From: a virus | Strand: one strand, 5' to 3' | Virus record (IMG/VR): IMGVR_UViG_3300032046_000144 | Span: 1-30,633 of that record | DNA length: 30,633 nt | Shown here: positions 3,295 to 28,792 of the stretch, one piece after another | Position numbering within the stretch: the stretch's first letter is position 1 | Layout: each line of letters opens with the position of its first letter | The notes under the pieces: generated by a model | Databases searched by the model: none | Told to the model about the DNA's origin: nothing | What the model saw: the letters and a program-made list of their open reading frames with translations, nothing else | Made by a program: the position numbers and the translations under genes

Positions 3295-3380
3295 TGGTAG
3301 CCCGAGAGAGATTTGAACTCCCACGCCATTTCTGGCAACAGGTTCTAAGCCTGTCGTGTCTGCATTCCATCCATCGGGCC
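3295..3380 (-). tRNA. tRNA-Leu(UAG)
   Basis: The anticodon arm is ACAGG-CTTAGAA-CCTGT. The 15-base variable arm has a GCCA/TGGC stem, as expected for leucine (class II). It has A73, encoded CCA, and a paired acceptor GGCCCGA/TCGGGCT. It is the last gene before the terminator on the - strand. Confidence 0.9.
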
Positions 3381-3384
3381 AAAA

Positions 3385-3461
3385 TGGTAGCACTGGTGAG
3401 ATTCGGACTCACACTATACGGCTTTTAAGACCGTCGCCTCTGCCAGTTGGGCTACAGTGCC
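3385..3461 (-). tRNA. tRNA with anticodon UAA (nominal Leu), short variable loop
   Basis: The anticodon arm is ACGGT-CTTAAAA-GCCGT, so the anticodon is UAA (leucine UUA codon). The variable loop is only 5 bases (ATAGT), whereas leucine tRNAs normally carry a long variable arm. A73 and encoded CCA are present. All four stems pair. The amino acid actually attached is uncertain. Confidence 0.8.
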
Positions 3462-3462
3462 T

Positions 3463-3539
3463 TGGTGCGTGAGGAAGGACTCGCACCTTCAGAACAATAG
3501 GTTTGAGCTATTGATGTCTGCTAATTGCATCACTCACGC
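3463..3539 (-). tRNA. tRNA with anticodon CAA (nominal Leu), short variable loop
   Basis: The anticodon arm is AATAG-CTCAAAC-CTATT, anticodon CAA (UUG codon). The acceptor GCGTGAG/CTCACGC is perfect, with A73 and encoded CCA. As in its neighbour, the variable loop has only 5 bases, unlike normal leucine tRNAs. Confidence 0.8.
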
Positions 3540-3540
3540 C

Positions 3541-3617
3541 TGGCAGGCCTAGTAGGAGTCGAACCTACTACCCTCAGTTTAGAAAACTGATGCTCTGTCC
3601 AAATGAGCTATAGGCCC
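3541..3617 (-). tRNA. tRNA-Arg(UCU)
   Basis: The anticodon arm is TCAGT-TTTCTAA-ACTGA, with T-loop TTCGACT, G73 and encoded CCA. It reads AGA codons, which are visibly common in the phage genes. Confidence 0.92.
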
Positions 3618-3623
3618 ACAAAA

Positions 3624-3699
3624 TGGTCTGCCTAAAAGGACTTGAACCTTTATCCTACTCCTTAGGACGGAGTTGTGCATCCAATTACACCATAGGCAG
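3624..3699 (-). tRNA. tRNA-Arg(CCU)
   Basis: The anticodon arm is ACTCC-GTCCTAA-GGAGT, with acceptor CTGCCTA/TAGGCAG, A73 and encoded CCA. It reads AGG. Its 5' end directly follows the CCA of the Arg(ACG) gene with no spacer. Confidence 0.92.
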
Positions 3700-3775
3700 T
3701 GGCTCCCCAAGAAGGAATTGCACCCTCACTTTCTCGGTCCGTAGCCGAGCGGTTTCTCTATTAACCTACTGGGGA
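3700..3775 (-). tRNA. tRNA-Arg(ACG)
   Basis: The anticodon arm is CTCGG-CTACGGA-CCGAG, with G73 and encoded CCA. A34 would normally be deaminated to inosine by host TadA to read CGU, CGC and CGA. It abuts the tRNA genes on both sides with zero spacing. Confidence 0.9.
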
Positions 3776-3850
3776 TGGTCTATGCGAAAGGAATTGAACC
3801 TTTATAGGACGCCTTATCGAGACGTTGCTTTGCCGGTCAGCCACGCATAG
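3776..3850 (-). tRNA. tRNA-Ile(GAU), with C33
   Basis: The acceptor CTATGCG/CGCATAG, D, anticodon (ACGTC/GGCGT) and T stems all pair; the T-loop is TTCAATT, with A73 and encoded CCA. The anticodon loop is TCGATAA, so the anticodon is GAU but position 33 is C instead of the almost universal U. Confidence 0.82.
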
Positions 3851-3857
3851 GTAAAAA

Positions 3858-3949
3858 TGGTAGTAGGGAGTGGATTCGCACCACTATCACGCTCCAGTCC
3901 AGAGCTTCTGGTTTATAAGGCCAGTGTTTTACTGTTAAACTACCCTACT
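3858..3949 (-). tRNA. tRNA with anticodon UAU (nominal Ile), long variable arm
   Basis: The anticodon loop is CTTATAA, anticodon UAU (AUA codon), on stem CTGGC/ACCAG with a C-A mismatch next to the loop. The variable region is 22 bases with a GCTC/GAGC stem, a class II feature not expected for isoleucine. The acceptor AGTAGGG/CCCTACT is perfect, with A73 and encoded CCA. Charging identity is doubtful. Confidence 0.75.
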
Positions 3950-3950
3950 A

Positions 3951-4024
3951 TGGTAGGCAGTGAAAGAATTGCACTCTCATCTTCTGGGTGTAGACCAGAT
4001 GTCCTTCTGTTGGACGAACCACCC
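3951..4024 (-). tRNA. tRNA-Val(UAC), with C33
   Basis: The anticodon arm is TCTGG-TCTACAC-CCAGA: anticodon UAC with C at position 33. The D stem GTCC/GGAC encloses a short 7-base loop. The acceptor GGGTGGT/ACTGCCT pairs with several G-U wobbles. A73 and encoded CCA are present. Confidence 0.78.
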
Positions 4025-4041
4025 TTTCAATGAACTATAAA

Positions 4042-4125
4042 TGGCTCCGAGGACAGGACTCGAACCTGTATGCCTTTCGGCGGCTGGTTAACAGCCAGCT
4101 GGGTGACCAATTACCCGACCTCGGA
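4042..4125 (-). tRNA. tRNA-Asn(GUU), with extended variable arm
   Basis: The anticodon arm is GCTGG-CTGTTAA-CCAGC, anticodon GUU, with G73, encoded CCA and a perfect acceptor TCCGAGG/CCTCGGA. The variable region is 13 bases with a GCC-GAAA-GGC hairpin, unusual for asparagine and closer to serine-type tRNAs. Confidence 0.82.
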
Positions 4126-4126
4126 A

Positions 4127-4201
4127 TGGTGCCGGAAGAGGGTGTCGAGCCTCATCTTTGGCTCTTCAGACCAACGCTCTTACCAGTTGAGCTATCCCGG
4201 C
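4127..4201 (-). tRNA. tRNA-Phe(GAA)
   Basis: The anticodon arm is TTGGT-CTGAAGA-GCCAA, with A73 and encoded CCA. The T arm is one base short (four firm pairs, loop near TCGACA), so it is slightly degenerate there. Confidence 0.87.
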
Positions 4202-4217
4202 ATATTACAAATAACAA

Positions 4218-4291
4218 TGGAGCAGGTGATGGTAATCGAAACCACGTATCGAGTTTGGAAAACTCGCATTCTGCCATTGAATTACACCTGC
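4218..4291 (-). tRNA. tRNA-Gly(UCC)
   Basis: The anticodon arm is CGAGT-TTTCCAA-ACTCG. U73 is the discriminator expected for glycine. CCA is encoded and the acceptor GCAGGTG/CACCTGC is perfect. Confidence 0.92.
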
Positions 4292-4297
4292 CTAAAT

Positions 4298-4372
4298 TGG
4301 AGCTCCGTCCCAGATTTGCGCTGAGCTCCCCGGTTTACAGGACCGGAGCATCGCTATCAATGCTTACGGAGC
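4298..4372 (-). tRNA. tRNA-Thr(UGU), with C33
   Basis: The anticodon arm is CCGGT-CCTGTAA-ACCGG: anticodon UGU with C at position 33. The D arm GCAT/ATGC and acceptor GCTCCGT/ACGGAGC are perfect. The discriminator is U, and CCA is encoded. Confidence 0.82.
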
Positions 4373-4375
4373 AAA

Positions 4376-4450
4376 TGGAGCCCGGTAAGGGAATTAGACC
4401 CTTTCTTTCACCTTGGCAAGGTGACGTACAAATCATTATACGAACCAGGC
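4376..4450 (-). tRNA. tRNA-Gly(GCC)
   Basis: The anticodon arm is TCACC-TTGCCAA-GGTGA, with U73 as in glycine tRNAs and encoded CCA. The acceptor has one G-U pair. Its 3' end is 3 bases from the 5' end of the Thr gene, and its 5' end abuts the CCA end of the Ala gene. Confidence 0.92.
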
Positions 4451-4524
4451 TGGTGGACCTTGCCAGAATCGCACTGGCATCTGCTGATTGCAAGTCAGCC
4501 ATCCTACTATTGAAGGAAAAGCCC
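4451..4524 (-). tRNA. tRNA-Ala(UGC)
   Basis: The anticodon arm is GCTGA-CTTGCAA-TCAGC. The acceptor GGGCTTT/AAGGTCC places a G-U wobble at 3-70, the classic alanine identity element. A73 and encoded CCA are present. The D arm is short and weak. Confidence 0.88.
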
Positions 4525-4539
4525 TTTACAAAGAACAAA

Positions 4540-4626
4540 TGGTGGTAGGTGATGGACTCGCACCATCGAACCCCTTTCGGGGACCTGGTTTACAGCCAGG
4601 CGGAATTGCTACTATCCCAACCTACC
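4540..4626 (-). tRNA. tRNA-Tyr(GUA)
   Basis: The anticodon arm is CCTGG-CTGTAAA-CCAGG. The long variable arm CCCC-GAAA-GGGG fits bacterial tyrosine tRNAs (class II). A73, encoded CCA and a perfect acceptor are present. Confidence 0.93.
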
Positions 4627-4629
4627 AAA

Positions 4630-4703
4630 TGGGGTGACCGGAGGGAATTAAACCCTCTTGTCGTGGGCCACAACCACGTGCCTTATCATTAGGCTACGGC
4701 CAC
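4630..4703 (-). tRNA. tRNA-His(GUG)
   Basis: The anticodon arm is CGTGG-TTGTGGC-CCACG. The discriminator is C73, specific to histidine tRNAs, with encoded CCA. The base before position 1 is T rather than the usual encoded G-1. Confidence 0.9.
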
Positions 4704-4715
4704 AGCGTTAGTGGG

Positions 4716-5219
4716 CTACAAATACTTTTCCCACAAATCGTGTATTTCACCTATCTTGATACGTATGATTTCCCTGAAGCCGTGAGGCTTGCTTGGAATA
4801 CGTATTAAATGCATACCGGCTTCTTGTGGTGTCCTGTTGTCTTTTACAGCATTACAACCGCTACAAGCAGACACCGTGTTATCCCATACCGATAGACCTC
4901 CCCTAGATTCAGGTATAACGTGGTCTACGGTTATCTTTTCCTTACGTGTCTTTTCAGCACAGTATTGGCATACGAAGTCGTCTCTGCGATGTATGTTATT
5001 CTTGGTGTAGGATACGTAAGTTATACGAGCATACACTACTTTTACATACTTCCTTAGACGGATAACTGCCGGAACCTTCATTTCCATACGTTGAGAGTGA
5101 ATTACCTTATCATACTCTTCCTCAACGATAGCCCTGCCTGTAACAGCAGCGCAAACTGCCGACTTCCAATCAGTTACACCAAGAAACTCATAACTTGCGT
5201 TTAACACTAATACTCGCAT
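4716..5219 (-). CDS. HNH endonuclease
   Basis: This 167-residue protein has a standard HNH nuclease core. Zinc-binding pair C84-x-x-C87 is followed by VDHVIPESRGG (98-108, D99-H100 catalytic) and W-D-N (112-114). A second zinc pair C119-x-x-C122 then begins a C-N-A-V-K run (122-126). The N terminus, RVLVLNASYEFLGV, matches a widespread family of free-standing bacterial and phage HNH proteins. It has a good ribosome-binding site (AGGAG, 8 bases before ATG). It sits among tRNA genes on the same strand and is the only confident protein gene in that unit, as expected of a homing-type endonuclease inserted in a tRNA array. A role in DNA packaging or host DNA cleavage is also possible. Confidence 0.88.
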   Translation of the reverse strand: MRVLVLNASYEFLGVTDWKSAVCAAVTGRAIVEEEYDKVIHSQRMEMKVPAVIRLRKYVKVVYARITYVSYTKNNIHRRDDFVCQYCAEKTRKEKITVDHVIPESRGGLSVWDNTVSACSGCNAVKDNRTPQEAGMHLIRIPSKPHGFREIIRIKIGEIHDLWEKYL

Positions 5220-5237
5220 ATACTTCTCCTTTATAAA

Positions 5238-5313
5238 TGGTCAGGATGGCTGGTTCTGCCCCAGCGGCCCTCTGGCCCCAAACCAGATGCTCTGCTATCT
5301 GAGCTACACCCTG
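5238..5313 (-). tRNA. tRNA-Pro(UGG)
   Basis: The anticodon arm is TCTGG-TTTGGGG-CCAGA. A73 and a first pair C1-G72 fit proline, and CCA is encoded. The T-loop reads GGCAGAA rather than the usual TTCnAnn. Confidence 0.88.
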
Positions 5314-5352
5314 TTATTTGCTCATTAACATTAACTATGTTAAAGTGCATAA

Positions 5353-5426
5353 TGGCTGTGGAGTATGGAATCGGACCATAACCTTAACTTTCAGAGAGTT
5401 ATGTGCAACCACTACACCACTCCACA
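5353..5426 (-). tRNA. tRNA-Gln(CUG)
   Basis: The anticodon arm is TAACT-CTCTGAA-AGTTA. A weak first pair U1-A72 and G73 fit glutamine. CCA is encoded and the acceptor TGTGGAG/CTCCACA is perfect. Confidence 0.92.
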
Positions 5427-5429
5427 ATA

Positions 5430-5505
5430 TGGCTGACGAGGGAGGTACCGCCCCTCCACCCCAAGATTCAAAGTCTTGTACGCTACACTACTACGCCACT
5501 CGTCA
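5430..5505 (-). tRNA. tRNA-Gln(UUG)
   Basis: The anticodon arm is CAAGA-CTTTGAA-TCTTG. U1-A72, G73 and encoded CCA are present. The acceptor TGACGAG/CTCGTCA is perfect. Confidence 0.92.
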
Positions 5506-5506
5506 A

Positions 5507-5583
5507 TGGTGGACCCGTCTCTCCTTTCAGGGAGAGGTATCTATTCAGACTACAACTGCCTAGGCAGCTAGCCTACCAGGCCC
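5507..5583 (-). tRNA. Degenerate tRNA-like gene, anticodon uncertain (GUA candidate)
   Basis: It is 77 bases long with encoded CCA and A73. A 7-pair acceptor (GGGCCTG/CGGGTCC, with G-U at 3-70), a D-like arm AGGC-TAGCT-GCCT and a strong T-like hairpin CTCTCC/GGAGAG are present. The anticodon arm keeps only three pairs (CAG/CTG) around TTGTAGT, giving GUA if functional. An extra A separates the T hairpin from the acceptor, and the T-loop (CTGAAA) lacks TTC. It could be a decaying tRNA or a tRNA mimic. Confidence 0.45.
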
Positions 5584-5588
5584 AAATC

Positions 5589-5663
5589 TGGTGAACGAGG
5601 TGAGATTTGCACTCACAATCTCCTGGTTAAGAGCCAGGTGCTTTAACATTTAGCTACTCGTCC
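5589..5663 (-). tRNA. tRNA-Lys(CUU)
   Basis: The anticodon arm is CCTGG-CTCTTAA-CCAGG. A73 and encoded CCA are present. The acceptor GGACGAG/CTCGTTC has one G-U wobble. Confidence 0.92.
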
Positions 5664-5664
5664 G

Positions 5665-5737
5665 TGCCTGTGGCGAGAATTGCACTCACAACCTTCTGGT
5701 TAAAAGCCAGATGCTCTGCTAATTGAGCTACACAAGC
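5665..5737 (-). tRNA. tRNA-Lys(UUU), no encoded CCA
   Basis: The anticodon arm is TCTGG-CTTTTAA-CCAGA, with A73 and acceptor GCTTGTG/CACAGGC. Unlike its neighbours the 3' end is not CCA: after A73 there is a single C, then the first base of tRNA-Lys(CUU). Maturation would need CCA addition. Confidence 0.9.
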
Positions 5738-5743
5738 AAAATT

Positions 5744-5818
5744 TGGAAACCGTGAGAGGATTTGCACCTCCATAGGAGAGCTCTGCAGGCTCCCGCCTAT
5801 CTAATCAGCCACACGGTC
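5744..5818 (-). tRNA. tRNA-Cys(GCA)
   Basis: The anticodon arm is GGAGC-CTGCAGA-GCTCT. U73 is the cysteine discriminator. CCA is encoded and the first acceptor pair is G-U. Confidence 0.9.
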
Positions 5819-5819
5819 T

Positions 5820-5893
5820 TGGTAGCGGGGCTGAGAATTGCACTCAGGTTCAGAGCTTATGAGACTCTGCGGCTGCTACTGCCATACCCCGCC
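5820..5893 (-). tRNA. tRNA-Met(CAU), elongator or Ile2 type
   Basis: The anticodon arm is AGAGT-CTCATAA-GCTCT, with A73 and encoded CCA. Position 1-72 is a G-U pair, not the C-A mismatch of initiators, and the anticodon stem lacks three G-C pairs, so it is not an initiator. An isoleucine tRNA with modified C34 has the same anticodon and is not excluded. Confidence 0.85.
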
Positions 5894-5900
5894 CGAAACT

Positions 5901-5975
5901 TGGCGAGTCGACTAGGACTTGCACCTAGAACTGCTGTTTTGGAGACAGCGGTGATTCTAATTTCACCATCGGCTC
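5901..5975 (-). tRNA. tRNA-Trp(CCA)
   Basis: The anticodon arm is GCTGT-CTCCAAA-ACAGC. G73 fits tryptophan, and CCA is encoded. The acceptor has one A-C mismatch. The 5' end abuts the CCA of the Ser(UGA) gene with no spacer. Confidence 0.9.
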
Positions 5976-6061
5976 TGGCGGAAGGTGGTAGAGTTGAACT
6001 ACCAAGCCCTTGCAGGCTCCTATTTTCAAGACAGGTAAGCTCGCCAATGCTCAGACCTTCC
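5976..6061 (-). tRNA. tRNA-Ser(UGA)
   Basis: The anticodon arm is CCTGT-CTTGAAA-ATAGG. It has the long variable arm of serine tRNAs, G73, encoded CCA and a perfect acceptor GGAAGGT/ACCTTCC. Confidence 0.93.
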
Positions 6062-6068
6062 GTAAAAT

Positions 6069-6158
6069 TGGCGGAAGGTGCGAGATTTGAACTCACATAG
6101 GATTTGGTCCTAACTGGTTTAGCAAACCAGCGCAGCCAACCGTATCTGCCTACCTTCC
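6069..6158 (-). tRNA. tRNA-Ser(GCU)
   Basis: The anticodon arm is CTGGT-TTGCTAA-ACCAG. The long variable arm has an AGGA/TCCT stem. G73 and encoded CCA are present. The acceptor is identical to that of the Ser(UGA) gene, suggesting shared ancestry or a shared identity constraint. Confidence 0.93.
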
Positions 6159-6163
6159 TAATC

Positions 6164-6431
6164 GGTGAACTATAACCCGGATTCTGTATTTGGTAATCAT
6201 CTATCTAAGCTCCCTACCCGATACTATTGACCGAGCCAGCCAGTATCCTATGTGGGATTGCTCCGCGTAGAGATTGGCCGTTTCACATTACTCGTCTCTG
6301 TTCCTCTAATCCTCACGTAAACGTGGGTAAGTTTATTAGACTTACTACACTGCTCTATGGAGTCCGGAGTTTCCTATGTATAGTAGACTAAACACGTATA
6401 TAGTTTACTAAACATCGATTACCTGTTCACC
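6164..6431 (-). ncRNA. rnpB: RNase P RNA (catalytic RNA), compact type A-like
   Basis: Read on the - strand, this 268-base RNA has the conserved blocks of bacterial RNase P RNA in order. They are GGAAACTCCGGACTCC followed by ATAGAGCAG (from 6374), AACAGAGA, GTGAAACGG, CGGAGCAA...ATAGG, TCGGGTAG, TTAGAT-GATGA, and ACAGAATCCGGGTTAT (6187-6172). The ends close as P1 (GGTGAAC 6164-6170 with GTTCACC 6425-6431). A GATACT/AGTATC hairpin encloses a GGU (6232-6230), at the position of the L15 loop that binds tRNA CCA ends in the bacterial RNA. It is shorter than typical bacterial forms (about 350-400), mainly in the specificity domain. It lies between Ser(GCU) and Asp tRNA genes in the same transcript, and would need a protein subunit, probably from the host. 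Confidence 0.93.
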
Positions 6432-6436
6432 AAGTT

Positions 6437-6515
6437 TGGCGGTCTGTACGGGCTTCGCTCCCGTGGTCTCTGGATTGACAATCCAGCGCATTCGGCTGGG
6501 CTATGCTAACAGACC
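6437..6515 (-). tRNA. tRNA-Asp(GUC)
   Basis: The anticodon arm is CTGGA-TTGTCAA-TCCAG, with G73, encoded CCA and perfect acceptor GGTCTGT/ACAGACC. The T-loop AGCGAAG departs from TTCnAnn. Its CCA end lies 5 bases before the RNase P RNA. Confidence 0.9.
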
Positions 6516-6530
6516 TAAATCAAAGAACAA

Positions 6531-6604
6531 TGGTAGGGCTGGTCGGTACTGACCCGGCGACTTCAGGCTGAAAACCTGATGTGTTACCTTTACACCACAG
6601 CCCC
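6531..6604 (-). tRNA. tRNA-Glu(UUC)
   Basis: The anticodon arm is TCAGG-TTTTCAG-CCTGA. A73 and encoded CCA are present. The acceptor GGGGCTG/CAGCCCT has a G-U first pair. It is the first tRNA of the unit, just after the leader terminator. Confidence 0.9.
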
Positions 6605-6615
6605 AAATAGACAAC

Positions 6616-6696
6616 AAAAAAAGACCTAATCCTTTTAAGTCGCAGTTCGTCCGTTTTTACTTCTTTGGAGAACTGCTACCTAATCGAATCGGTCTT
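6616..6696 (-). terminator. Leader terminator or attenuator
   Basis: On the - strand AAGACC (6696-6691) pairs with GGTCTT (6626-6621), enclosing GCAGTTC (6676-6670) with GAACTGC (6648-6642); TCC/GGA adds three more pairs past one bulged C. The structure ends in seven U (6622-6616). The GCAGTTCTCC arm can instead pair with GGAGAAACTGC just upstream (6720-6710). It stands between the promoter and the first tRNA, so it would control how much transcription enters the tRNA unit. Confidence 0.7.
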
Positions 6697-6810
6697 ATTT
6701 ATATACAGAGCAGTTTCTCCTGTCACTGGACAGAGTGCGACGCCTAACGTCGGTTGCTGTTTGCACCCGGCGAATCGCTCGCACCACATATGTCTACTTG
6801 ACAGGATCAT
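6676..6810 (-). CDS. Possible 44-residue leader peptide
   Basis: An ATG at 6810 follows AAAAGGAG with 9-base spacing, so translation is plausible. The frame runs 44 codons (starts MILSSRHMWCERF) and stops with TAG inside the arm that switches between antiterminator and terminator. The encoded antiterminator strand (6720-6710) lies within it, so a translating ribosome would change which hairpin forms. The peptide has no recognised motif, and the stems crossing it argue that this may be non-coding RNA only. Confidence 0.3.
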   Translation of the reverse strand: MILSSRHMWCERFAGCKQQPTLGVALCPVTGETALYINKTDSIR

Positions 6811-6848
6811 TGAAAACTACTCCTTTTAAACTTCTACTATACTATGTA

Positions 6849-6882
6849 GTAATAAGTATATCACAAGAACGTGTTTTGTCAA
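6849..6882 (-). promoter_or_regulatory. Sigma-70-like promoter of the tRNA/RNase P unit
   Basis: On the - strand a perfect TTGACA (6882-6877) is followed after 16 bases by TATACT (6860-6855), close to TATAAT. Transcription would start near 6848 and run left through the leader, tRNAs, RNase P RNA and HNH gene. It would be read by unmodified host RNA polymerase, suggesting early expression. Confidence 0.75.
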
Positions 6883-6894
6883 ATTTATTTTTAA

Positions 6895-6948
6895 TGAGTA
6901 GAGGTTGGAATATGCCAACTTAGCCACCCTTTGGTGGACCTCTACTCA
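6895..6948. repeat. Three-way-junction inverted repeat
   Basis: TGAGTAGAGGT (6895-6905) is the exact inverse complement of 6938-6948. Inside are two further hairpins, GTTGG/CCAAC (6904-6908 with 6915-6919, sharing two bases with the outer stem) and CCACC-CTTT-GGTGG (6924-6937). No T-run follows on either strand, so it is not a simple terminator. It could be a structured 5' leader of the nucleotidyltransferase operon or a protein-binding cruciform. Confidence 0.6.
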
Positions 6949-6954
6949 CAACTA

Positions 6955-7000
6955 TATTAATATGAAAGTATGGAAAATAATACATTTTTTCATATTAATA
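6955..7000. repeat. AT-rich 13-base inverted repeat
   Basis: TATTAATATGAAA (6955-6967) is exactly inverted at 6988-7000, with a smaller GTAT/ATAC pair inside. It lies 30 bases before the start of the nucleotidyltransferase gene, so it could be an operator or part of an mRNA leader. A TATATT sequence at 6953-6958 could be a -10 element, but no good -35 accompanies it. Confidence 0.5.
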
Positions 7001-7029
7001 TATATGACTGCATCTAAATACAAGGTAGT

Positions 7030-8454
7030 ATGAATAAGTTATCTAAAAGGATAGATATATTGTTTGAGTCTCTTACTAAAGAGGATTGGTATGGGTATGT
7101 TAAATCTATGCCGATGCTCCAGGCCGCTGTTGAGGTATTAAACAAGTTGAATACAGTTGGAAAGGCATATATCGTGGGTGGGGCTGTTAGGGATCTCATT
7201 ACTGGTGATAAAGAACCAGACGATATTGATATTGCCACTGACGTTCCAATAGAACAAATATCGAGTATGTTTGAGACATTTGATAAAGGAAAAAGCAAAG
7301 GATTTGGGATAGTTGCGGTAAAGCATAATAATTATGTATTTGAAGTAGCTCAATTTAGGGAAGATGGAGAATACCTTGATGGTCGAAGGCCGGAAACAGT
7401 AAAGGTAGGCGTAGACTTCAAAACTGACGCAGCTCGTAGGGATTTCACTATCAATGCAATGGGTATAGATAGTGAAGGTACTATATATGACTATTTTGAC
7501 GGTATAGAAGATATTAAGAATAAGACTTTACGCACGGTAGGAGATCCTAATAAGCGGTTTGAGGAAGATTACCTGCGTATGTTACGTGCTGTTCGGTTCA
7601 GCTCAAGAATGGGGTATGAAATAGACCCGGAAACTTACTCTGCACTAAAGAAACATTCCAGCAAGATAACAAAGATAGCCCCAGAACGTATAATGAAAGA
7701 AGTGGTAAAGATGGCCGAACAGGAAGGTCCAAAGTTCGCATCTGCGCTACAGGTGCTTAAAGACACAGGGCTACTTCAATACATAATACCAGAAGTAGTT
7801 GATTTAGAGCGATATGAGCATAGTCCAGAACACCATCCTGAGGGTAGAACTGTATATGACCATATTATAGCCGCACTACACCAAAACAAACTAGATAATC
7901 CCATGATTAACTTAGCTATTCTTTTACACGATATAGGTAAACCTCCTGCGTTTAAGAAAGAGGGAGATAAGATGTCGTATATAGACCACGCAGAGAAAGG
8001 GGTCCATATAATAGAGCAGATTGCAGATAGGCTTAAAATGGATAATGAGACAAGAGAAGCTCTTATCTTTGCCTGCCTACATCATATGAAGTTTTCCAGA
8101 TTTGTAGAGATGTCCGATAAGAAGATACTTGACCTCATAAACCACGATAAATGGGAAGTTCTAAAACAGACAGCTTATTCTGATAGCGCTGCCAGAAAGC
8201 ACTTATTTGACCCGGCTGAGTGGAAACAGGTTGAGGATAAGGTAGAACAGATTAAACAGAAGTTCAGTGGTAAGCAGGCGTTAGATAATATCAAGAAAAT
8301 AGTCAACGGAAAGCTTGTTATGCAGTTGCGTGGTATATCTCCCGGGCCGGAGGTAGGTAAATACATTAAGTCCACTATTGAATGGATAGTGGAGAATAAT
8401 ATCAATGTAGAGGACATAGATAAAATAAAGGGATATATACAAAGCCTTCCTTAA
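7030..8454 (+). CDS. cca: tRNA nucleotidyltransferase (CCA-adding type) with HD domain
   Basis: This 474-residue protein is a class II nucleotidyltransferase. The head has the signature VGGAVRD (49-55), then the metal-binding D65-I-D67, followed by RRDFTINAM (136-144), FEEDYLRMLRAVRF (177-190), and the ERIMKE motif (219-224). A C-terminal HD phosphohydrolase domain follows, with YDH (275-277), LLHDIGK (298-304) and H320. Such enzymes add or repair CCA at tRNA 3' ends; a poly(A) polymerase or a partial (A- or CC-adding) enzyme has the same motifs and cannot be separated by eye. The phage encodes about 30 tRNAs next door, one without CCA, so CCA addition or repair is the natural role. It is the first gene of the long + operon, with AAGG 9 bases before ATG. 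Confidence 0.92.
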   Translation: MNKLSKRIDILFESLTKEDWYGYVKSMPMLQAAVEVLNKLNTVGKAYIVGGAVRDLITGDKEPDDIDIATDVPIEQISSMFETFDKGKSKGFGIVAVKHNNYVFEVAQFREDGEYLDGRRPETVKVGVDFKTDAARRDFTINAMGIDSEGTIYDYFDGIEDIKNKTLRTVGDPNKRFEEDYLRMLRAVRFSSRMGYEIDPETYSALKKHSSKITKIAPERIMKEVVKMAEQEGPKFASALQVLKDTGLLQYIIPEVVDLERYEHSPEHHPEGRTVYDHIIAALHQNKLDNPMINLAILLHDIGKPPAFKKEGDKMSYIDHAEKGVHIIEQIADRLKMDNETREALIFACLHHMKFSRFVEMSDKKILDLINHDKWEVLKQTAYSDSAARKHLFDPAEWKQVEDKVEQIKQKFSGKQALDNIKKIVNGKLVMQLRGISPGPEVGKYIKSTIEWIVENNINVEDIDKIKGYIQSLP

Positions 8455-8842: not shown

Positions 8843-9271
8843 ATGGATTTATCTGAAATAGGAAAAGTTATTAGTGAACTTGGTTTTGGAGCAGTGGCTA
8901 TGTCGGCAGTTATATTTGCCTCCTGGAAATTGATGGTTTGGGGTAAAGATATTGTTGATAAGGCAATGGTTCAGTTAGAACGTGAGAGAGAACGTTCTAG
9001 TGAGGTATATACTAAATTATCCAGAGCAATTGATGACCATACATCTCAAGCTAAAGAATTTCATATGGAAGTAAGAAATGCTCACGGATACCAGAGAGAT
9101 GAGCATAATAAGATAATGGACGGAGTTGTAACTGTATGTTCCGAACTAAAAAGATGTTCGGATCAACAGCAAGACAATGCGGACCAAAGGCAGAAAGAAC
9201 ACGAAAAAATGATAACTAACTTAGATGAACAATATAAAGTTCTTTTAAGAATAAATGGGGAGAAACATTAA
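8843..9271 (+). CDS. Single-pass membrane coiled-coil protein
   Basis: This 142-residue protein has a short N terminus, one membrane segment (about residues 13-34) and a long charged helical tail with coiled-coil periodicity (about 40-135). The layout resembles small phage holin-like or spanin-like membrane proteins but no signature confirms it. The ribosome-binding site is AGAGGA, 6 bases upstream. It lies in the unrecognised block ahead of the packaging genes. Confidence 0.6.
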   Translation: MDLSEIGKVISELGFGAVAMSAVIFASWKLMVWGKDIVDKAMVQLERERERSSEVYTKLSRAIDDHTSQAKEFHMEVRNAHGYQRDEHNKIMDGVVTVCSELKRCSDQQQDNADQRQKEHEKMITNLDEQYKVLLRINGEKH

Positions 9272-10950: not shown

Positions 10951-12084
10951 ATGGGATTACTAGAGAAATTTAATAGAATAGTAAAAGAAGCCGATATAAT
11001 CCATCCTGAAAAGAAAAGATGGGGAAAGACCGGGGATGAAGATCTGAATAAGATACTTCCTCAACTTTCCACTGAAGAGGAAAAATCGTATTTTACTACT
11101 ATTTTTAGTGACCATTATAAGAGTGTAGTAGCAATGATAGAAAAGTATACTGGAACAAGGGTTACCCACGCAAATCTACCAAGTTTAATACAGCTTCTCC
11201 AATCTTCTTTAAATAAAATTACCTCATTAGAGAGAAAACATAAGAAGTATTTAGAGGAACTTGTTCTTACTACTATTTTTAAAGTAGACGAATTTAAGAT
11301 GATAGAAGAGCTGTATATGAATAACGAATTGAAGTTTGATATTAAATTAGATACCCCAGACTTATCTAGGGCGTTGGAGAAACTTCCTCCAGAAGAGGAA
11401 GAAACAAACCTATCTCCGGAAGAGCAGTTTAATGCTGTAATGTTTGATGGGTTTTCAAACCTTTCGGAAGAGAAGCTGATGAGGCGTTTCCAGAATATGC
11501 TTATTTCTGGTGGTTCTTTCTCTAAATTTGAGCTATTTACAGAGGTAGCAGACAGTTTGAATAGGATAGACCCAACACTAACAAATCTGTATGGCATAGT
11601 TTCATCACTCGCACAATTAGGGTATTGGGTTACACCGTTCGGTGTAGAAGAGGCTGCCGCTGGTAGTAGCGCAGGTGGATCTGAGGAAGTGAAGCCGCAG
11701 GGTGATATTTACGTTATTAAGGCAAGAGGGATGAACTTCCCATTCTTAGTCCACGAAACGTTAAAGGGTATATACGAATATCAAGCAATGGACCCAGAAC
11801 ATCAAGTAGCTATGAAACACGATACTATAGGGGCAGAAACAAAGGATATATTAAGTGGGGTTGGTGTATTTAAGACAATAGCTTCATATCTCACACCAGA
11901 ACAGCAGGAGTTACTGCCTGTTATTCAAGCTAGGTTAGTTAAAGTTAATCCACAGCAGATACAAGATATACTAGCAAAGAACGATAATGGTAAGAAGCTA
12001 ATGGATACGTTCATTAAAGATGCTGAGAATAGTGTTGGAACTTTCAAGAAAGCTAAGACAGACAAATATGCCGATTTTAAATGA
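10951..12084 (+). CDS. Hypothetical protein, mostly helical
   Basis: This 377-residue protein is predicted almost wholly helical, with an acidic stretch near 145-160 (PPEEEETNLSPEEQF) and a Gly/Ser-rich loop near 235-245. It starts one base after the previous stop and overlaps the next gene by 17 bases, so translation is likely coupled. No known family is recognised. Confidence 0.6.
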   Translation: MGLLEKFNRIVKEADIIHPEKKRWGKTGDEDLNKILPQLSTEEEKSYFTTIFSDHYKSVVAMIEKYTGTRVTHANLPSLIQLLQSSLNKITSLERKHKKYLEELVLTTIFKVDEFKMIEELYMNNELKFDIKLDTPDLSRALEKLPPEEEETNLSPEEQFNAVMFDGFSNLSEEKLMRRFQNMLISGGSFSKFELFTEVADSLNRIDPTLTNLYGIVSSLAQLGYWVTPFGVEEAAAGSSAGGSEEVKPQGDIYVIKARGMNFPFLVHETLKGIYEYQAMDPEHQVAMKHDTIGAETKDILSGVGVFKTIASYLTPEQQELLPVIQARLVKVNPQQIQDILAKNDNGKKLMDTFIKDAENSVGTFKKAKTDKYADFK

Positions 12085-12814
12085 CGATGTATTTAAACCA
12101 GCTGATAAAGACGATATCCAAAGACGGAAGGTTGAGTTTGCGAAGTCTAGGGGTGCTTGGGTAGAGACAGCTCGCAGAGAATTGGGGGAAGTTGAAGGCG
12201 TCGAGGTTGAGATTACTACTTCTTGGGAAGGGGACGCCGGTGTGTCAATGGAATCCCAGTCTAAGGGTAACTCTGGTGAGTCGGAATGGATAGTATATCC
12301 AAACTATGAATCTGCCGAAAGAGCGGCTATAAACCAGGCTAAAGATGATTTGGATGCAGATATAGGAAACTTTAAACCAGAGTTTATTAGGCAGTTTATG
12401 TATATATCTGATACAGATAGAAGGATTATAGCAGGTGAAGAAGCAGATTCGAGAATGGAAGGTGTAGACGAGCGGGAAATGCTTGAACTTACCGGTAATG
12501 AGCAAGATTATGATGAGGCTGAGGAAGCCGGGCTCGTGGATGAAATGAGTAGGATTTTGGATGAAGCTAAAGAGCAGCTACAAGAGAAATACTATGATGA
12601 CATCTATGCAAGATTAGAAGACCCTATTAACTATTTTGTTGTAGAATTAGGAGCATACACAGAAGAGCAGTTGTTTAAAGTAAATTGGATTAGCATACAT
12701 TCGGATGCGGCGGCAGAAGCGGCCATAGATGCTGACGGTGTAGCTCATTTTTTAGATAGATATGACGGAGAAGGAATAGAACTACCATCCGGTGCGATAG
12801 CATACGGAACATAA
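12068..12814 (+). CDS. Hypothetical protein with N-terminal DVFKPAD motif
   Basis: This 248-residue acidic protein starts MPILNDDVFKPADKDDIQRR. I chose ATG 12068 because that N terminus matches motifs in two other proteins here (near residue 155 of the 13647 product and the N terminus of the 26664 product); the longer frame from 12020 adds residues wholly inside the preceding gene. The middle contains a short alpha/beta region (about 40-80) and the rest is helical and acidic. No family is recognised. It overlaps the upstream gene by 17 bases. Confidence 0.6.
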   Translation: MPILNDDVFKPADKDDIQRRKVEFAKSRGAWVETARRELGEVEGVEVEITTSWEGDAGVSMESQSKGNSGESEWIVYPNYESAERAAINQAKDDLDADIGNFKPEFIRQFMYISDTDRRIIAGEEADSRMEGVDEREMLELTGNEQDYDEAEEAGLVDEMSRILDEAKEQLQEKYYDDIYARLEDPINYFVVELGAYTEEQLFKVNWISIHSDAAAEAAIDADGVAHFLDRYDGEGIELPSGAIAYGT

Positions 12815-12826
12815 GGGAGAAATAAA

Positions 12827-13669
12827 ATGGAAATAGGGTCTAGGGTAAAACATATTACAGAGGGTAAACTGGGACATATAGTAAACGCAAGTTCGGAATG
12901 GAACTTAGTGCTTTGGGATGACGGGAATATCGTTCCCGAAGATGATGAAGCTTTAGAAATTTTAAAAGAAGATATTGGAAGAGTGCAGGAAGAAATTGCG
13001 TTTGATGAGGATAGGGTTATAGAGTTAATGAAGGATGCTGGTTGGGGAGACGCAGTTTACGCCAACAAAGACGATTTCGAGAATTCGCATTTCTTTAATA
13101 ACCCCGCAAACGAAGATGAGTATGCCAAGCAGTTTGATATGTATATGCATACATTATCAGTAGGGGATGATATAGAAGAGGATGCATCGTCAAGCACTAC
13201 CCAAACCCTAGACCCGAATAAACCGAACACACCTCAGACTTTTACAGACCCAAATAAACCCCAGACTCAAACGTTAAGCCCTAATCCGAACCCAACACCA
13301 ACGTTAGAACAATTACCTACTCTTAAATCCCAGGATAAGATTACTATAAATGGTATTCCATCTGGGGACCAGATGAGTTCCTATAATGGTAAGCAGGCCG
13401 TGGTGGTTTCAACAGGTCCGGAGGGAACTACTCTTAATGTCGGTGGTGAGAACGTTATATTCAATAAGCCGCAATATCTTAAGAAATTGAATGAGAAAGA
13501 TACTGCTACTTTTGACCGTAGCGCAGATAGGGGCGTCGGTAAGGGTGATGACGATAAGAAGAAAGAAGATAAGAAAGAAACTGAAATAGAGACCCCCGTT
13601 TCAGCTTGGAGAAAGAAGTTTAAGTTTAGTAAAAAGGAAGATAAGAATGTTAGTGAAGTTCAAGATTAA
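12827..13669 (+). CDS. SH3/KOW-like domain protein with Pro-rich linker
   Basis: In this 280-residue protein, residues 1-45 (GSRVKHITEGKLGHIV...LVLWDDG) resemble an SH3-like or KOW beta-barrel, as found in many phage structural proteins. A helical region (50-110) is followed by a Pro/Thr/Asn-rich linker (about 123-165) built on repeated DPNKP and NPNPTPT units. A second small beta domain (about 172-225) and a very basic C-terminal tail follow. It has a GGGAGAA ribosome-binding site. It overlaps the next gene by 23 bases. A linker-tethered architecture suggests a binding or scaffold role, but function is unknown. Confidence 0.55.
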   Translation: MEIGSRVKHITEGKLGHIVNASSEWNLVLWDDGNIVPEDDEALEILKEDIGRVQEEIAFDEDRVIELMKDAGWGDAVYANKDDFENSHFFNNPANEDEYAKQFDMYMHTLSVGDDIEEDASSSTTQTLDPNKPNTPQTFTDPNKPQTQTLSPNPNPTPTLEQLPTLKSQDKITINGIPSGDQMSSYNGKQAVVVSTGPEGTTLNVGGENVIFNKPQYLKKLNEKDTATFDRSADRGVGKGDDDKKKEDKKETEIETPVSAWRKKFKFSKKEDKNVSEVQD

Positions 13670-14705
13670 AGGACTTACAAATGTTCCGTCGTTCCAAGAG
13701 CATATACAAGGCAAAGCCGGAGACGGATTTGTATATAGGAACTTGGGAAATAGGATGGAGTTGGATATAGTTAGAATGTTTGTATTTGATTTGGCGGGGA
13801 AGTTAAAGAAGGCGGGTGTTCCAGAGTTTAAAGTATCTAATTCTCCATTCTTTTTAGGACAGACAGCCGCATTTTGGGTATGGCTATCTGATCGGTGGAG
13901 AGATTACGTAGAGGTAGAACAAGTGAGTGAAATGAAAGATAGATTTTCTGAAGCTATTGACCGAGATGAGGAAACAGGTGATCTTGCTTGGTATGAATCC
14001 CCTTCTGGGCAGAGTAGACGTGGTAAGATTACGCAGATAAATCAATCTGAGGGATATATGGTTATTTCCGATATCGTGACAAAATCTGAATATACAGTTG
14101 CGATACACGAAGACGTATTCAAGCCTGCTGATAGGAACGACCTTAAAAAGAGAGAGCAAGATAGACCTCCCCTAACCATTGACGATTTAGAGGAAATAAA
14201 TGTCCTTAGGGGTATATTTGATGAAAACCATAGTCAGGGGAGTAAAGTTGCCGATAATGTTTGGGTGAATATGATAAATGCTTTACTTAAAAAATCCAAA
14301 CGTCCTTTTTCGGATTTGACACATTTAAGCGATGAGATTTTAAATCTACTAATGACTTTAGATGACATTCATCTTGATAATGAGCGTACGCATATGGCCG
14401 GAGTTATAAAGCGTGATTCTGCAAGGCGTAGTGCTTTAAGAGAGGAAAAAGGAAAGAAGTCCTTTACAACCGAAGAAGCTAATAAGCTGGCTAAGGAACA
14501 AGGATATACTGGGGATTCGCAAGAGTTTGCTTGGGGTCTGGATATAGAGTTAGAACACGGAACTATAACACCCGATACAAATGTTACAGATGACGATCCT
14601 ACTAAGACGGCAAAGATAGCTTTAGCGCATTTGAATGAGATACCGGACTATTATACAAGGTTAAGAGCATTAGAAAAAGCGGGTAAAGCAGCTAAGAAAG
14701 GGTAA
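13647..14705 (+). CDS. DUF5661-type C-terminal domain protein
   Basis: This is a 352-residue protein. Residues about 290-347 match what I know as DUF5661: the chain GLDIELEHG, TNVTDDDP, KIALAHLNEIPDYYTRL is characteristic of that uncharacterised family, seen often in phages. Residues about 123-150 (RRGKITQI...YMVISDI) look SH3/KOW-like, directly followed by EDVFKPADRNDLKKRE, a motif shared with two other proteins in this window. The N-terminal domain (1-95) is alpha/beta and unrecognised. The start overlaps the previous gene by 23 bases, preceded by AGGA. DUF5661 function is unknown to me. Confidence 0.65.
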   Translation: MLVKFKIKGLTNVPSFQEHIQGKAGDGFVYRNLGNRMELDIVRMFVFDLAGKLKKAGVPEFKVSNSPFFLGQTAAFWVWLSDRWRDYVEVEQVSEMKDRFSEAIDRDEETGDLAWYESPSGQSRRGKITQINQSEGYMVISDIVTKSEYTVAIHEDVFKPADRNDLKKREQDRPPLTIDDLEEINVLRGIFDENHSQGSKVADNVWVNMINALLKKSKRPFSDLTHLSDEILNLLMTLDDIHLDNERTHMAGVIKRDSARRSALREEKGKKSFTTEEANKLAKEQGYTGDSQEFAWGLDIELEHGTITPDTNVTDDDPTKTAKIALAHLNEIPDYYTRLRALEKAGKAAKKG

Positions 14706-16409: not shown

Positions 16410-16859
16410 ATGAAAATTGTAAAACTTTTAACAGAGCATTCTTGGGTATCTCCTTGGGATTTGGACCTGGATAAAACAACAATAGACCAAAAAGGTAAAA
16501 TTGATTCTGTCTATCCGGAACTAAAAGGAGAGGGGCAGTGTCCTTTCTGGAAAACACTTAAATCAAAGATACACGGAGAAGATGGAGAGGGAGCAAAGGT
16601 TCCAAAAAGCTTCGCTTTAGAGGTAGCAAAAGAATACAAGATACCATTAGACCCAAGCTATTCAACTCCTTGTTGCATTTGTTCTGGTAAGTCTTGTACG
16701 TTTTTTGGTGGTGTCGCAGGTGGTAAGATTAGCTGTAACTTTAAGGTCGGAGCTAAGCCTATAAAGAAAACAGCCGCTCCGAAAGTAGAAGTTCCGGGAG
16801 CTCCTAAAACAGAGGCTCCGGCGCAGGAAGGACCGAAAGTTGATGTGGAGAGACGATAA
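16410..16859 (+). CDS. Cys-rich small protein, probable zinc binder
   Basis: This 149-residue protein holds a cluster CCICSGKSC with a further SCNF about 15 residues on, and an earlier QCPFW near residue 44. Together these could form one or two metal sites. The C-terminal 40 residues are Ala/Pro/Lys-rich and disordered. The start follows GGGGAG. Its stop overlaps the next ATG (TAATG at 16857-16861). Function is unknown. Confidence 0.55.
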   Translation: MKIVKLLTEHSWVSPWDLDLDKTTIDQKGKIDSVYPELKGEGQCPFWKTLKSKIHGEDGEGAKVPKSFALEVAKEYKIPLDPSYSTPCCICSGKSCTFFGGVAGGKISCNFKVGAKPIKKTAAPKVEVPGAPKTEAPAQEGPKVDVERR

Positions 16860-18448
16860 TGGATCTTAATGAATTTTTAACTTCGATAGGATTTGGTAGA
16901 ACTAAATCTAGTAGTCTAGATGATATCTTAAAAGAGTCATATTCTCTAGCTTTTCCTTATAAAATAGTACAAGAAGAGGTTGGGGTTAGCGTACTTTGTC
17001 CGAAGTGTAAAGGAACAATAGATTACTACGGAGATGCTTTACGTGGTGGTCCTGAAGGATCAGAAATGGCTACTGAGTGGAAATGTCCTCAGTGTGGTGA
17101 GATTTTAGTTGGTGACGATTATAATGAAATGGACGAAGATACTCCCTTTGATAAGTCGGCTAGTATATGGGGATCCCATCCTCCGAAAAGACAGCCAACC
17201 TCTATGGTTACGAGAGATACTGCTTTAACTCCGGAAGTCTTACCAAAGCACTACGACAAGAATAGAAAAGCTCTTATGCAGGTTTTAAGCACATTTGGAA
17301 TTCCATCCGAAACAGCCGATGAGATTATACGTAATAGTGAATCTCCGGAAGCTAAAGAGAAGATGAAACGAGTTATATTTAAGGTTTTAACATTGAAATA
17401 TGGACTACCTGAGACAGAAGCCAAAGAGTTTATGGATAAGTATGGAGAGGCTGATGTTGACGATATGATTAAAGGTGTTATGGGTATTTTAGGTAGAGAA
17501 GCCCTCCCAGGTGCTACCAGAGGAGCTCCCAGATTAAGCCATATTAGGGAAGCTATGGATAGGGTTTATAGACATTTGAGCTTTTATAACTTATTTGAGG
17601 GATTTGGTTCAGCAAAGAGGACCTATGTGGATACAGGCAAACTTCATAAGAATCCAGCAGAAGGATTAAGAATACTAAAAATGCTGGCAGAGAAAGACCC
17701 CACGTATCCAGAGAAGGGGAAGTATGTTGAATGGATGGCTAAGACATTTCGTTCTATGCCTTCTATGGCAAAATATGAGGCTATAAGAGACTTTGATAAA
17801 TACTGTGAATTAAACCAGATAGAGAAGAAGGATATTAACCAATACGCAAATATAGAACAAGTGGATGATGCGGTTAGGGTAGCCGCCGCAAAGTATCAGG
17901 CTAAAAAAGGAGAAGCCGAGTCAGAGACCGAGCATTTCCGAATAATTCGTCTTTCTAAGGATATAAAGAGTTTAGATAAGGCAATAAAAAAAGAGACAGA
18001 TCCAGCAAAGAAAAAGAGTATGTTAGCCAAGAAGGCAAAATTAGAAAATGAAATACAATCTACAAAAGGATTCCTGAAAGATTTAGATCCAAAAGATATT
18101 GTTTGGAAGGGCGCAAAAGTTATAGTTGTCCGACCTCCTAGTGTAGAAAAGAGTTGTAAGTATGGTGTAGGAAGTAACTGGTGTACTGCGGCTCAGGGGT
18201 CTAGAAATTATTTCAATAGCTATTACTTCGGTAGGGGTGTTAATCTCTACTATATGATACCGCTCATAGATTTAGGTGATGAGAAGTATAATAGGATTGC
18301 TATTGCCACATACCCCAATAGCAAAGAGAGGGAATATTACGATATTCACGATTCTCGTATAGATAATAAAACTCTTATTGACATAATGCGTAAACTCGGC
18401 TTCCCAGAAGACGAGATCACTGGACCAAACGGAAGCGTAAAAGAATAG
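16859..18448 (+). CDS. Zinc-ribbon and Trp-Cys domain protein
   Basis: This is a 529-residue protein. The N-terminal zinc ribbon has C47-x-x-C50 and C76-x-x-C79. A helical middle region runs about 130-400. The C-terminal domain (about 415-520) opens SCKYGVGSNWCTAAQGSRNY (C433 onward) and continues FNSYYFGRG. A closely similar block occurs near residue 1098 of the 1286-residue protein encoded between portal and protease. I know this YGxGxxWCtA...N.F..Y...G pattern as a recurrent but uncharacterised domain of phage and bacterial proteins; the conserved Trp, Cys, Arg and Tyr suggest a ligand- or nucleotide-binding site. It lies 7 bases before terminase, so a packaging or head-linked role is possible. 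Confidence 0.6.
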   Translation: MDLNEFLTSIGFGRTKSSSLDDILKESYSLAFPYKIVQEEVGVSVLCPKCKGTIDYYGDALRGGPEGSEMATEWKCPQCGEILVGDDYNEMDEDTPFDKSASIWGSHPPKRQPTSMVTRDTALTPEVLPKHYDKNRKALMQVLSTFGIPSETADEIIRNSESPEAKEKMKRVIFKVLTLKYGLPETEAKEFMDKYGEADVDDMIKGVMGILGREALPGATRGAPRLSHIREAMDRVYRHLSFYNLFEGFGSAKRTYVDTGKLHKNPAEGLRILKMLAEKDPTYPEKGKYVEWMAKTFRSMPSMAKYEAIRDFDKYCELNQIEKKDINQYANIEQVDDAVRVAAAKYQAKKGEAESETEHFRIIRLSKDIKSLDKAIKKETDPAKKKSMLAKKAKLENEIQSTKGFLKDLDPKDIVWKGAKVIVVRPPSVEKSCKYGVGSNWCTAAQGSRNYFNSYYFGRGVNLYYMIPLIDLGDEKYNRIAIATYPNSKEREYYDIHDSRIDNKTLIDIMRKLGFPEDEITGPNGSVKE

Positions 18449-26663: not shown

Positions 26664-27329
26664 ATGCTGGAAGATATTTTTAAACCGGCTTCTACTGCTG
26701 ACTTAGAGAATAGAAATGCCGAGTATTATAAGACACCAGACGCCATAGAGCTCAAGAGAGCTTTAGATGTGGCAGATGAAGCTATAAAGCATTATGATTG
26801 GATCTTTGAAGATGAGTTCTCTGCCGGACACGCAAGAGATAGTAAGAATATGGTAGAGTTCAATATAAAGATGAGCTCTGTAAATGTTCCAGACGAGGTC
26901 CTAGATAAAGCAGAGAAGTTGGGTGTTAGAGAGCAACTTGACCAATACTTTTGGGAAGAGTTGCCGGATCAATTGAAGTTCTTTGTAGAGTGGTTGCAGG
27001 AGGACTTCCCGTTCATAGAAGATTATTACCAAGAAGGTAGAATGGGAGGATGGTTGTTATTGAAGTTAGCTCCTCCGGTGAACTACTACGAGGATGATTT
27101 GAACGGAATAAGGCAAGATTTTGAAAACCTTAATATGGATGTCAGGGATATTAAACCGGCCATAAGAGAGGTTAAGAACACAACAAAGCAATTGGAGAAA
27201 AGAATAAAAGAAATATATAGAATTGCGAGGCGTGTAGAGAACGGAAGAAAGTCATTATCGAAGGAAATGTCCTCACCCAAATACTGGGAGAGGTTTTTTG
27301 AAAACTATGCAGAGGCGGTAAATATATGA
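26664..27329 (+). CDS. Hypothetical protein with N-terminal DIFKPA motif
   Basis: This 221-residue protein starts MLEDIFKPASTADLENRN, related to the N terminus of the 12068 product and to an internal segment of the 13647 product. The rest is helical, with aromatic-rich segments (YFWEELPDQLKFFVEWL, about 94-110) and a coiled-coil-like region (about 150-200). It overlaps the protease gene by 4 bases (ATGA), implying coupled expression. It may be a head-core protein by position only. Confidence 0.6.
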   Translation: MLEDIFKPASTADLENRNAEYYKTPDAIELKRALDVADEAIKHYDWIFEDEFSAGHARDSKNMVEFNIKMSSVNVPDEVLDKAEKLGVREQLDQYFWEELPDQLKFFVEWLQEDFPFIEDYYQEGRMGGWLLLKLAPPVNYYEDDLNGIRQDFENLNMDVRDIKPAIREVKNTTKQLEKRIKEIYRIARRVENGRKSLSKEMSSPKYWERFFENYAEAVNI

Positions 27330-28779: not shown

Positions 28780-28792
28780 GAGGAATTTGAGA

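Follow-up and report, generated by a model that had tools for sequence, protein, structure and literature searches.

A Size-Reduced Class A RNase P RNA in a Phage tRNA Array

The tRNA Array and Its Phage Context

The window, i.e., the whole stretch of DNA analyzed here, is 30,633 bases long and is recorded as a linear virus sequence. ARAGORN places 24 tRNAs at 3295-6604 on its minus strand, and cmscan adds several more, for a total of 28. An RNase P RNA takes up the space separating tRNA-Asp(gtc) from tRNA-Ser(gct); it lies on the same strand as all of these tRNAs, in line with an earlier sequence-only reading of this DNA. The array and its neighborhood contain the following features, listed in the direction of the array and followed by its divergent neighbor:

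6855-6882 (-), sigma-70-like promoter TTGACA-16-TATACT with a TG extension (extended -10), 11/12 (promoter scan)
6676-6810 (-), 44-aa leader ORF, with similar ORFs in viral loci L002 and L010 (MILSSRHMWCERFAGCKQQPTLGVALCPVTGETALYINKTDSIR) (read from the sequence)
6616-6696 (-), long leader hairpin plus trailing U run, just ahead of tRNA-Glu, z -5.2 (folding)
6531-6604 (-), tRNA-Glu(ttc), the first tRNA of the array (ARAGORN)
6437-6515 (-), tRNA-Asp(gtc), CCA encoded, directly upstream of the RNase P RNA (ARAGORN)
6164-6431 (-), class A RNase P RNA, from P1 end to P1 end (RF00010 match, alignment, covariation)
6069-6158 (-), tRNA-Ser(gct), its 5' end 5 nt after P1 (ARAGORN)
3295-6061 (-), the other 25 tRNA genes of the array (cmscan, ARAGORN)
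4716-5219 (-), HNH endonuclease within the array (protein-family match)
7030-8454 (+), CCA-adding enzyme with PolyA_pol, RNA-binding, and HD domains (protein-family match)

The array is compact, many of its tRNAs being spaced by 0-7 nt, and CCA is encoded by 27 of the 28. The only exception, tRNA-Lys(ttt) at 5664-5737 (-), runs directly into tRNA-Lys(ctt); the phage encodes a CCA-adding enzyme. P1 of the RNase P RNA starts 5 nt past the CCA of tRNA-Asp and ends 5 nt short of tRNA-Ser. At the junctions, tRNA-Asp ends with GACCGCCA, the RNase P RNA stretch runs from AACUUGGUGAAC to GUUCACCGAUUA, and tRNA-Ser begins with GGAAGG. The ends of the mature RNA are likely set by the flanking tRNAs, at approximately 6159-6436.

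The TTGACA-16-TATACT site is the sole strong promoter-like site on the minus strand and lies upstream of the whole array; the promoter scan revealed no strong site between tRNA-Asp and the RNase P RNA. As the total number of promoter-like sites equals that in shuffled sequences, the site is a lead rather than proof. The leader hairpin is also present in L010 (z -3.7). Together, the 44-aa ORF and the hairpin resemble a leader peptide plus attenuator of the tRNA operon, or else an unnamed structured RNA.

The remainder of the window contains head and packaging genes, all identified by protein-family matches:

18456-20189 (+), terminase large subunit, T4 gp17-like (Terminase_6N)
20865-22778 (+), portal, T4 gp20-like (Portal_T4, E 2e-77)
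27326-27931 (+), prohead protease, T4 gp21-like (Peptidase_S77)
28787-30436 (+), major capsid protein, T4 gp23-like (Gp23, E 7e-85)

Judged by these homologs of gp17, gp20, gp21, and gp23, the window is a fragment of a T4-like phage. Its capsid protein is closest to those of the huge phages LR756511 (595 kb) and LR756508 (484 kb), with 33-35% identity. Two otherwise different window proteins (16859-18448 and 22792-26652, +) share a CKYGxGxNWCxAAxGSRNYFNSYxxGRG-type motif. A short (E)D(V/I)FKPA-type motif is common to three proteins located among the structural genes (12020-12814, 13647-14705, and 26664-27329, +), and perhaps is a prohead targeting or processing signal.

Identity and Limits of the RNase P RNA

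The sequence-only reading had made its proposal of a phage RNase P RNA dependent on a significant full-length covariance-model match and on retention of P4 and of the universally conserved residues. The first was obtained with cmscan and Rfam 15: RF00010 (RNaseP_bact_a) matches at 6434-6157 (-) with 143.3 bits (E = 2.3e-44; the gathering score is 100 bits), spanning model positions 1-367 without truncation, and a separate genome search of the window yielded the identical match. Class A is the best match within the clan, and class B (RF00011) is not. The second holds as well, as P4 is intact and the conserved core is kept.

All conserved blocks named earlier are present in the sequence and follow in the right order. 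These are the J3/4-P4 5' block AGGAAACUCCGGA (6375-6363), the CR-II block ACAGAGACGAG, GUGAAAC, the J5/15 block GGAGCAA, the L15 block CGGGUAGG, which adjoins P15 and carries GGU, and the P4 3' block ACAGAAUCCGGGUUA. The core of the specificity domain, P7-P11 with CR-II and CR-III, is retained as ACAGAGAC and GUGAAAC. The proposed perfect terminal stem is found in P1, GGUGAAC/GUUCACC, which pairs 6425-6431 with 6164-6170, so that the limits given for the RNA, 6164-6431, coincide exactly with the outer ends of this stem. In known RNase P, the GGU of L15 pairs with the tRNA CCA, and the class A RNA together with RnpA cleaves the 5' leaders of pre-tRNAs. We conclude that this is almost certainly a genuine phage RNase P RNA of class A.

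Fold, Reduction, and Covariation

The helices were assigned manually with the RF00010 alignment as guide. In this arrangement, the RNA forms P1, P2, P3, P4 with its bulged U, P5, P6, P7-P11, P15, P16, and P17, the main elements being as follows:

6425-6431 (-), P1 5' strand, partner 6164-6170 (alignment, covariation)
6363-6371 (-), P4 5' strand with bulged U, partner 6174-6181 (alignment, covariation, phage copies)
6352-6355 (-), P6 5' strand GAGC, forming a pseudoknot with L17 GCUC (6233-6236), a class A feature (alignment, covariation)
6265-6350 (-), reduced specificity domain P7-P11, without P12, P13, and P14 (cmscan, alignment)
6211-6257 (-), P15-P16-P17 with the L15 block (cmscan, alignment)
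6174-6181 (-), P4 3' strand (alignment, covariation, phage copies)

P12, P13, P14, and P18 are absent from the RF00010 alignment of the window RNA. The suggestion that the RNA is minimized in the specificity domain therefore holds for P12-P14, but the reduction is not restricted to that domain, since P18 of the catalytic domain is absent too. These helices are usual but not universal in class A, and are not needed for membership. At the place where P12 is missing from the window RNA, L010 carries a P12 insertion.

The window RNA was aligned with its relatives from L010, L002, and L015, which are 67-90% identical. In this alignment of four sequences, 97.3% of 292 pair cells stay paired, and double-sided changes are observed in 26 of 76 pairs (11.2 expected), with none of 500 shuffles reaching any of the covariation measures. 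As a control, sliding the partner by 1-3 columns reduces pairing to 30-36%. The structure was partly derived from the window, which biases the paired fraction toward it; the double changes are independent of this bias. Hence, the fold is under selection. All eight pairs of P4 are formed in all four sequences, two of them with double changes (C-G to G-C in L002 and A-U to G-C in L015); P6 is GAGC/GCUC in three sequences and GAGU/ACUC in L015; and the P7-P11 helices are 100% paired.

A set of 36 phage copies was collected using patterns that leave certain P4 positions free. These positions pair in 36/36 and 34/36 copies: one pair is G-C in 33 copies and C-G in three, while the other is G-C, A-U, U-A, or G-U in 34. 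Given the covariation among four phage homologs and the pairing at free positions of the scan, the likeness to RNase P RNA is not due to chance. Folded thermodynamically on its own, the window RNA is only weakly better than shuffled sequences (z -1.5), as expected for an RNA with pseudoknots, and this value was not used as evidence.

RNase P RNAs in Other Viral tRNA Arrays

IMG/VR was surveyed by portal-based and pattern scans, followed by Rfam searches of the recovered records. RNase P RNA was identified in 33 loci surrounded by at least three tRNAs; approximately 30 remain distinct after removal of near-copies. In 19 of these loci, the distance from the 3' P4 core to the start of a tRNA is at most 30 nt, roughly the P1 3' strand plus a short leader, so that RNase P cleavage at this tRNA would also make the 3' end of the ribozyme. 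The order Asp-RNase P-Ser is exactly that of the window in L002 and L010 and recurs with wider spacing in L015 (67% identical).

Many of these contigs have phage hallmark genes. Terminases are encoded on contigs G013 (together with a portal), G020 (with a DnaB-like helicase and ribonucleotide reductase), G028, G029, G031, G033, G057, and G066, and weaker terminase matches were found on G037, G056, and G058. Other contigs encode a tail sheath (G018), PhoH and a clamp-loader-like AAA protein (G010), or DNA polymerase and primase (G014). For contigs without visible hallmark genes, the viral origin rests on the IMG/VR assignment.

The phage RNAs range in length from about 207 nt (L068, 118.5 bits) to more than 330 nt. 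Eight divergent copies (L014, L016, L017, L020, L023, L069, L096, and L098) keep P1-P4 and the 3' core and score below the RF00010 cut-off; their specificity domain seems to have been rebuilt, and strong alteration of this domain is evident in the distant copies L014, L017, L020, and L023. The L020 copy (core approximately 4931-5186, -) contains about 50 nt that also occur, mostly unannotated, in phages of Klebsiella, Cellulophaga, Pectobacterium, and Bacillus; this may perhaps be an insertion, e.g., a small intron or mobile piece within the RNase P RNA. L065, a 115-kb viral contig, combines a GOLLD RNA, tmRNA, and RNase P RNA in one tRNA array (2438-2853, 6827-7195, and 8917-9151). TROVE/Ro60-like genes lie near the RNase P RNA in L046 (6732-8390, a weak Pfam match below the cut-off) and, identified by eye only, in L002 (389-1867). 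In bacteria, Ro60 binds small structured RNAs.

Several candidates were rejected. L018, L022, L025, L063, L064, and L070 are chance pattern matches, with no Rfam match and no UUA after P4. A further group (L074-L076, L078, L080, L083, L085-L088, L090, L092, L094, L095, L099-L101, L103, L104, and L109), with zero or one tRNA and mostly high scores, was not counted, because these loci may be bacterial rnpB genes beside proviruses.

Searches of 50,697 deposited phages by blastn, one with the window RNA and one with six other phage copies joined together, gave no hit to RNase P RNA; what they returned were tRNA or chance fragments, apart from a single shared motif that is unexplained. Similarly, RF00010 had no match in any of 12 deposited huge or T4-like phages.

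Origin of the Phage RNAs and Their Protein Partner

Three other viral records contain the motif of the window type, GAGCTTAGANAGATGATTA...ACAGAA; it is absent from all 84,980 bacterial and archaeal species genomes searched. A looser motif lacking P18 occurs in 81 bacterial contigs, mainly from Bipolaricaulota, Actinomycetota, Dependentiae, Gemmatimonadota, and Chloroflexota. When 33 phage RNAs and 74 others were compared in a maximum-likelihood tree, the window fell into a phage-only clade of 12 rows (support 99/98). The tree needs six label changes, at least three of them by starred branches, so that the phage RNAs probably have several origins. Caution is required, since the tree brings long branches together, the RNAs differ in composition, the alignment ignores structure, and the bacterial rows were either chosen by the P18-less motif or are provirus-borne.

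RnpA (PF00825) was detected in none of 39 viral records that carry RNase P RNA or are closely related, all of which are fragments, the largest being 497, 463, and 372 kb; the same model found RnpA in 10 of 14 control genomes. Because all these records are fragments, the absence is only suggestive, and an RnpA gene could still lie in an unsampled part of these phage genomes. The earlier expectation of a host protein subunit fits this result. Since no phage RnpA gene was found, we infer that the window RNA uses host RnpA, which we consider reasonably likely.

Proposed Function and Alternative Explanations

Our preferred interpretation, to which we assign a probability of roughly 80%, is that the phage's tRNAs are matured by an RNase P RNA that the phage itself carries, a class A form of reduced size. 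It agrees with the earlier proposal that the phage makes its own 5'-maturation ribozyme, which is supported by the phage contig, the full-length match, and the intact core, with catalysis remaining an inference. In this scheme, the array would be transcribed as a single precursor. Processing of the 3' end of tRNA-Asp would release the 5' end of the ribozyme, and cleavage at the 5' end of tRNA-Ser would free both this tRNA and the ribozyme 3' end, so that the enzyme may help to mature itself. The RNA would then join host RnpA, and the holoenzyme would cleave the closely spaced phage pre-tRNAs at their 5' ends, with the GGU of L15 pairing with their encoded CCA. The presumed benefit is RNase P activity that remains available once the host enzyme is swamped with phage pre-tRNA or transcription of host rnpB ceases during infection. 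Support for this interpretation comes from the full class A core and its covarying helices, the location in the array, the ends abutting tRNAs, and the single strong promoter-like site, as well as from the phage hallmark genes on the contig, the 27 CCA-encoding tRNAs, the lack of an RnpA match in the 39 fragmentary records, and the recurrence in about 30 distinct viral arrays. Counting against it, most tRNA-rich phages do without an RNase P RNA of their own (none of the 12 deposited huge or T4-like phages has an RF00010 match), and some distant phage copies have strongly altered specificity domains and fall below the family cut-off; it also remains inferential insofar as the transcript, the activity, and the protein partner are all unobserved.

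A product of recent capture, contamination, or chimeric assembly involving bacterial rnpB is conceivable in principle, as IMG/VR contains proviral or bacterial stretches with rnpB, and L074-L076 (>330 bits) are probably such cases. For the window, this is already contradicted by the T4-like genes on the same contig, the same position of the RNA in independent assemblies at 67-90% identity, the presence of the lineage motif in three other viral contigs and in none of the 84,980 species genomes, and the well-supported phage-only clade, leaving it a very slim chance. Nor does the loss of P12, P13, P14, and P18, which could point to a decaying pseudogene of a captured rnpB, make that reading any more credible, as the peripheral helices were lost without loss of core pairing, and the intact core covaries strongly.

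Two other explanations accept a functional RNA and assign it a different role. It could be a decoy or competitor whose RNase P-like fold mainly titrates host RnpA (or host pre-tRNA), slows host tRNA maturation, and shuts down host translation; without an RnpA found in the phage it would draw on the host pool, and the altered specificity domains of distant copies could be read in the same way. However, compensatory preservation of the catalytic P4 core, L15, and P6 would not be required of a decoy, nor would a location in the phage's tRNA array with ends set by tRNAs, and we consider this role unlikely. At least as doubtful is a ribozyme with another main target, i.e., host or phage RNAs outside the array, such as transcripts of defense systems or repaired tRNAs. 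The specificity domain is indeed reduced and varies between phage lineages, but the location in tRNA arrays of about 30 viral contigs and the CCA-encoding tRNAs point to the array tRNAs as substrates. Thus, the most likely reading of the window RNA remains that of an active ribozyme, its activity being inferred, which recruits host RnpA for the maturation of phage tRNAs.

Relation to Known Systems and Implications

Few ribozymes are near-universal in cells; RNase P RNA is among them and is regarded as a cellular core gene, and phage tRNAs, those of T4 first, are textbook substrates of host RNase P. The window RNA resembles class A rnpB as modeled by RF00010 in its full-model match, helices P1-P11 and P15-P17, the P4 and P6 pseudoknots, the L15 GGU, and the conserved regions. 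It differs in being encoded by a phage, between tRNA genes that set its ends, and in lacking P12, P13, P14, and P18 at a length of about 268 nt. Naturally small class A RNAs without some peripheral helices are known from Mycoplasma fermentans and Chlorobium, and are similarly reduced; in contrast to the window RNA, these are chromosomal genes, and the motif of the window lineage is absent from the 84,980 species genomes, though the looser P18-less motif does occur in bacterial contigs. tmRNA and GOLLD are likewise structured RNA genes among phage tRNAs, all three RNAs occurring together in L065, but are unrelated to RNase P RNA and have other functions.

The tRNA arrays with translation genes in T4 and in huge phages (PMC7162821) resemble that of the window in being accompanied by a CCA-adding enzyme, whereas in T4 RNase P is supplied by the host, and T4 pre-tRNAs are described as its classical substrates in a review (PMC11143913). 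At the keyword level, phage-encoded RNase P RNA is absent from two RNase P reviews of 2024 (PMC11143913, PMC10941002), from a paper on rnpB annotation (PMC7191817), and from the huge-phage paper (PMC7162821), which does not mention RNase P. No earlier report was found in the open full-text literature. As subscription papers, preprints, and Rfam member lists were outside the scope of this search, the novelty is provisional.

A broader generalization, which we regard as evenly balanced between true and false, is that tRNA-rich phages repeatedly carry RNase P RNA genes, which form phage-only lineages of several origins, have moved far away from bacterial rnpB (shrinking to as little as about 207 nt, with rebuilt specificity domains), and act with host RnpA as a hybrid, self-maturing RNase P specialized for phage tRNAs. 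If so, such phages would gain autonomy from the host in the first step of tRNA maturation. A phage-carried ribozyme widens the known reach of phage control over translation and raises the question of whether a viral RNA can take over host RnpA, while the phage copies constitute a set of naturally minimized and diverged RNase P RNAs for structure-function work.
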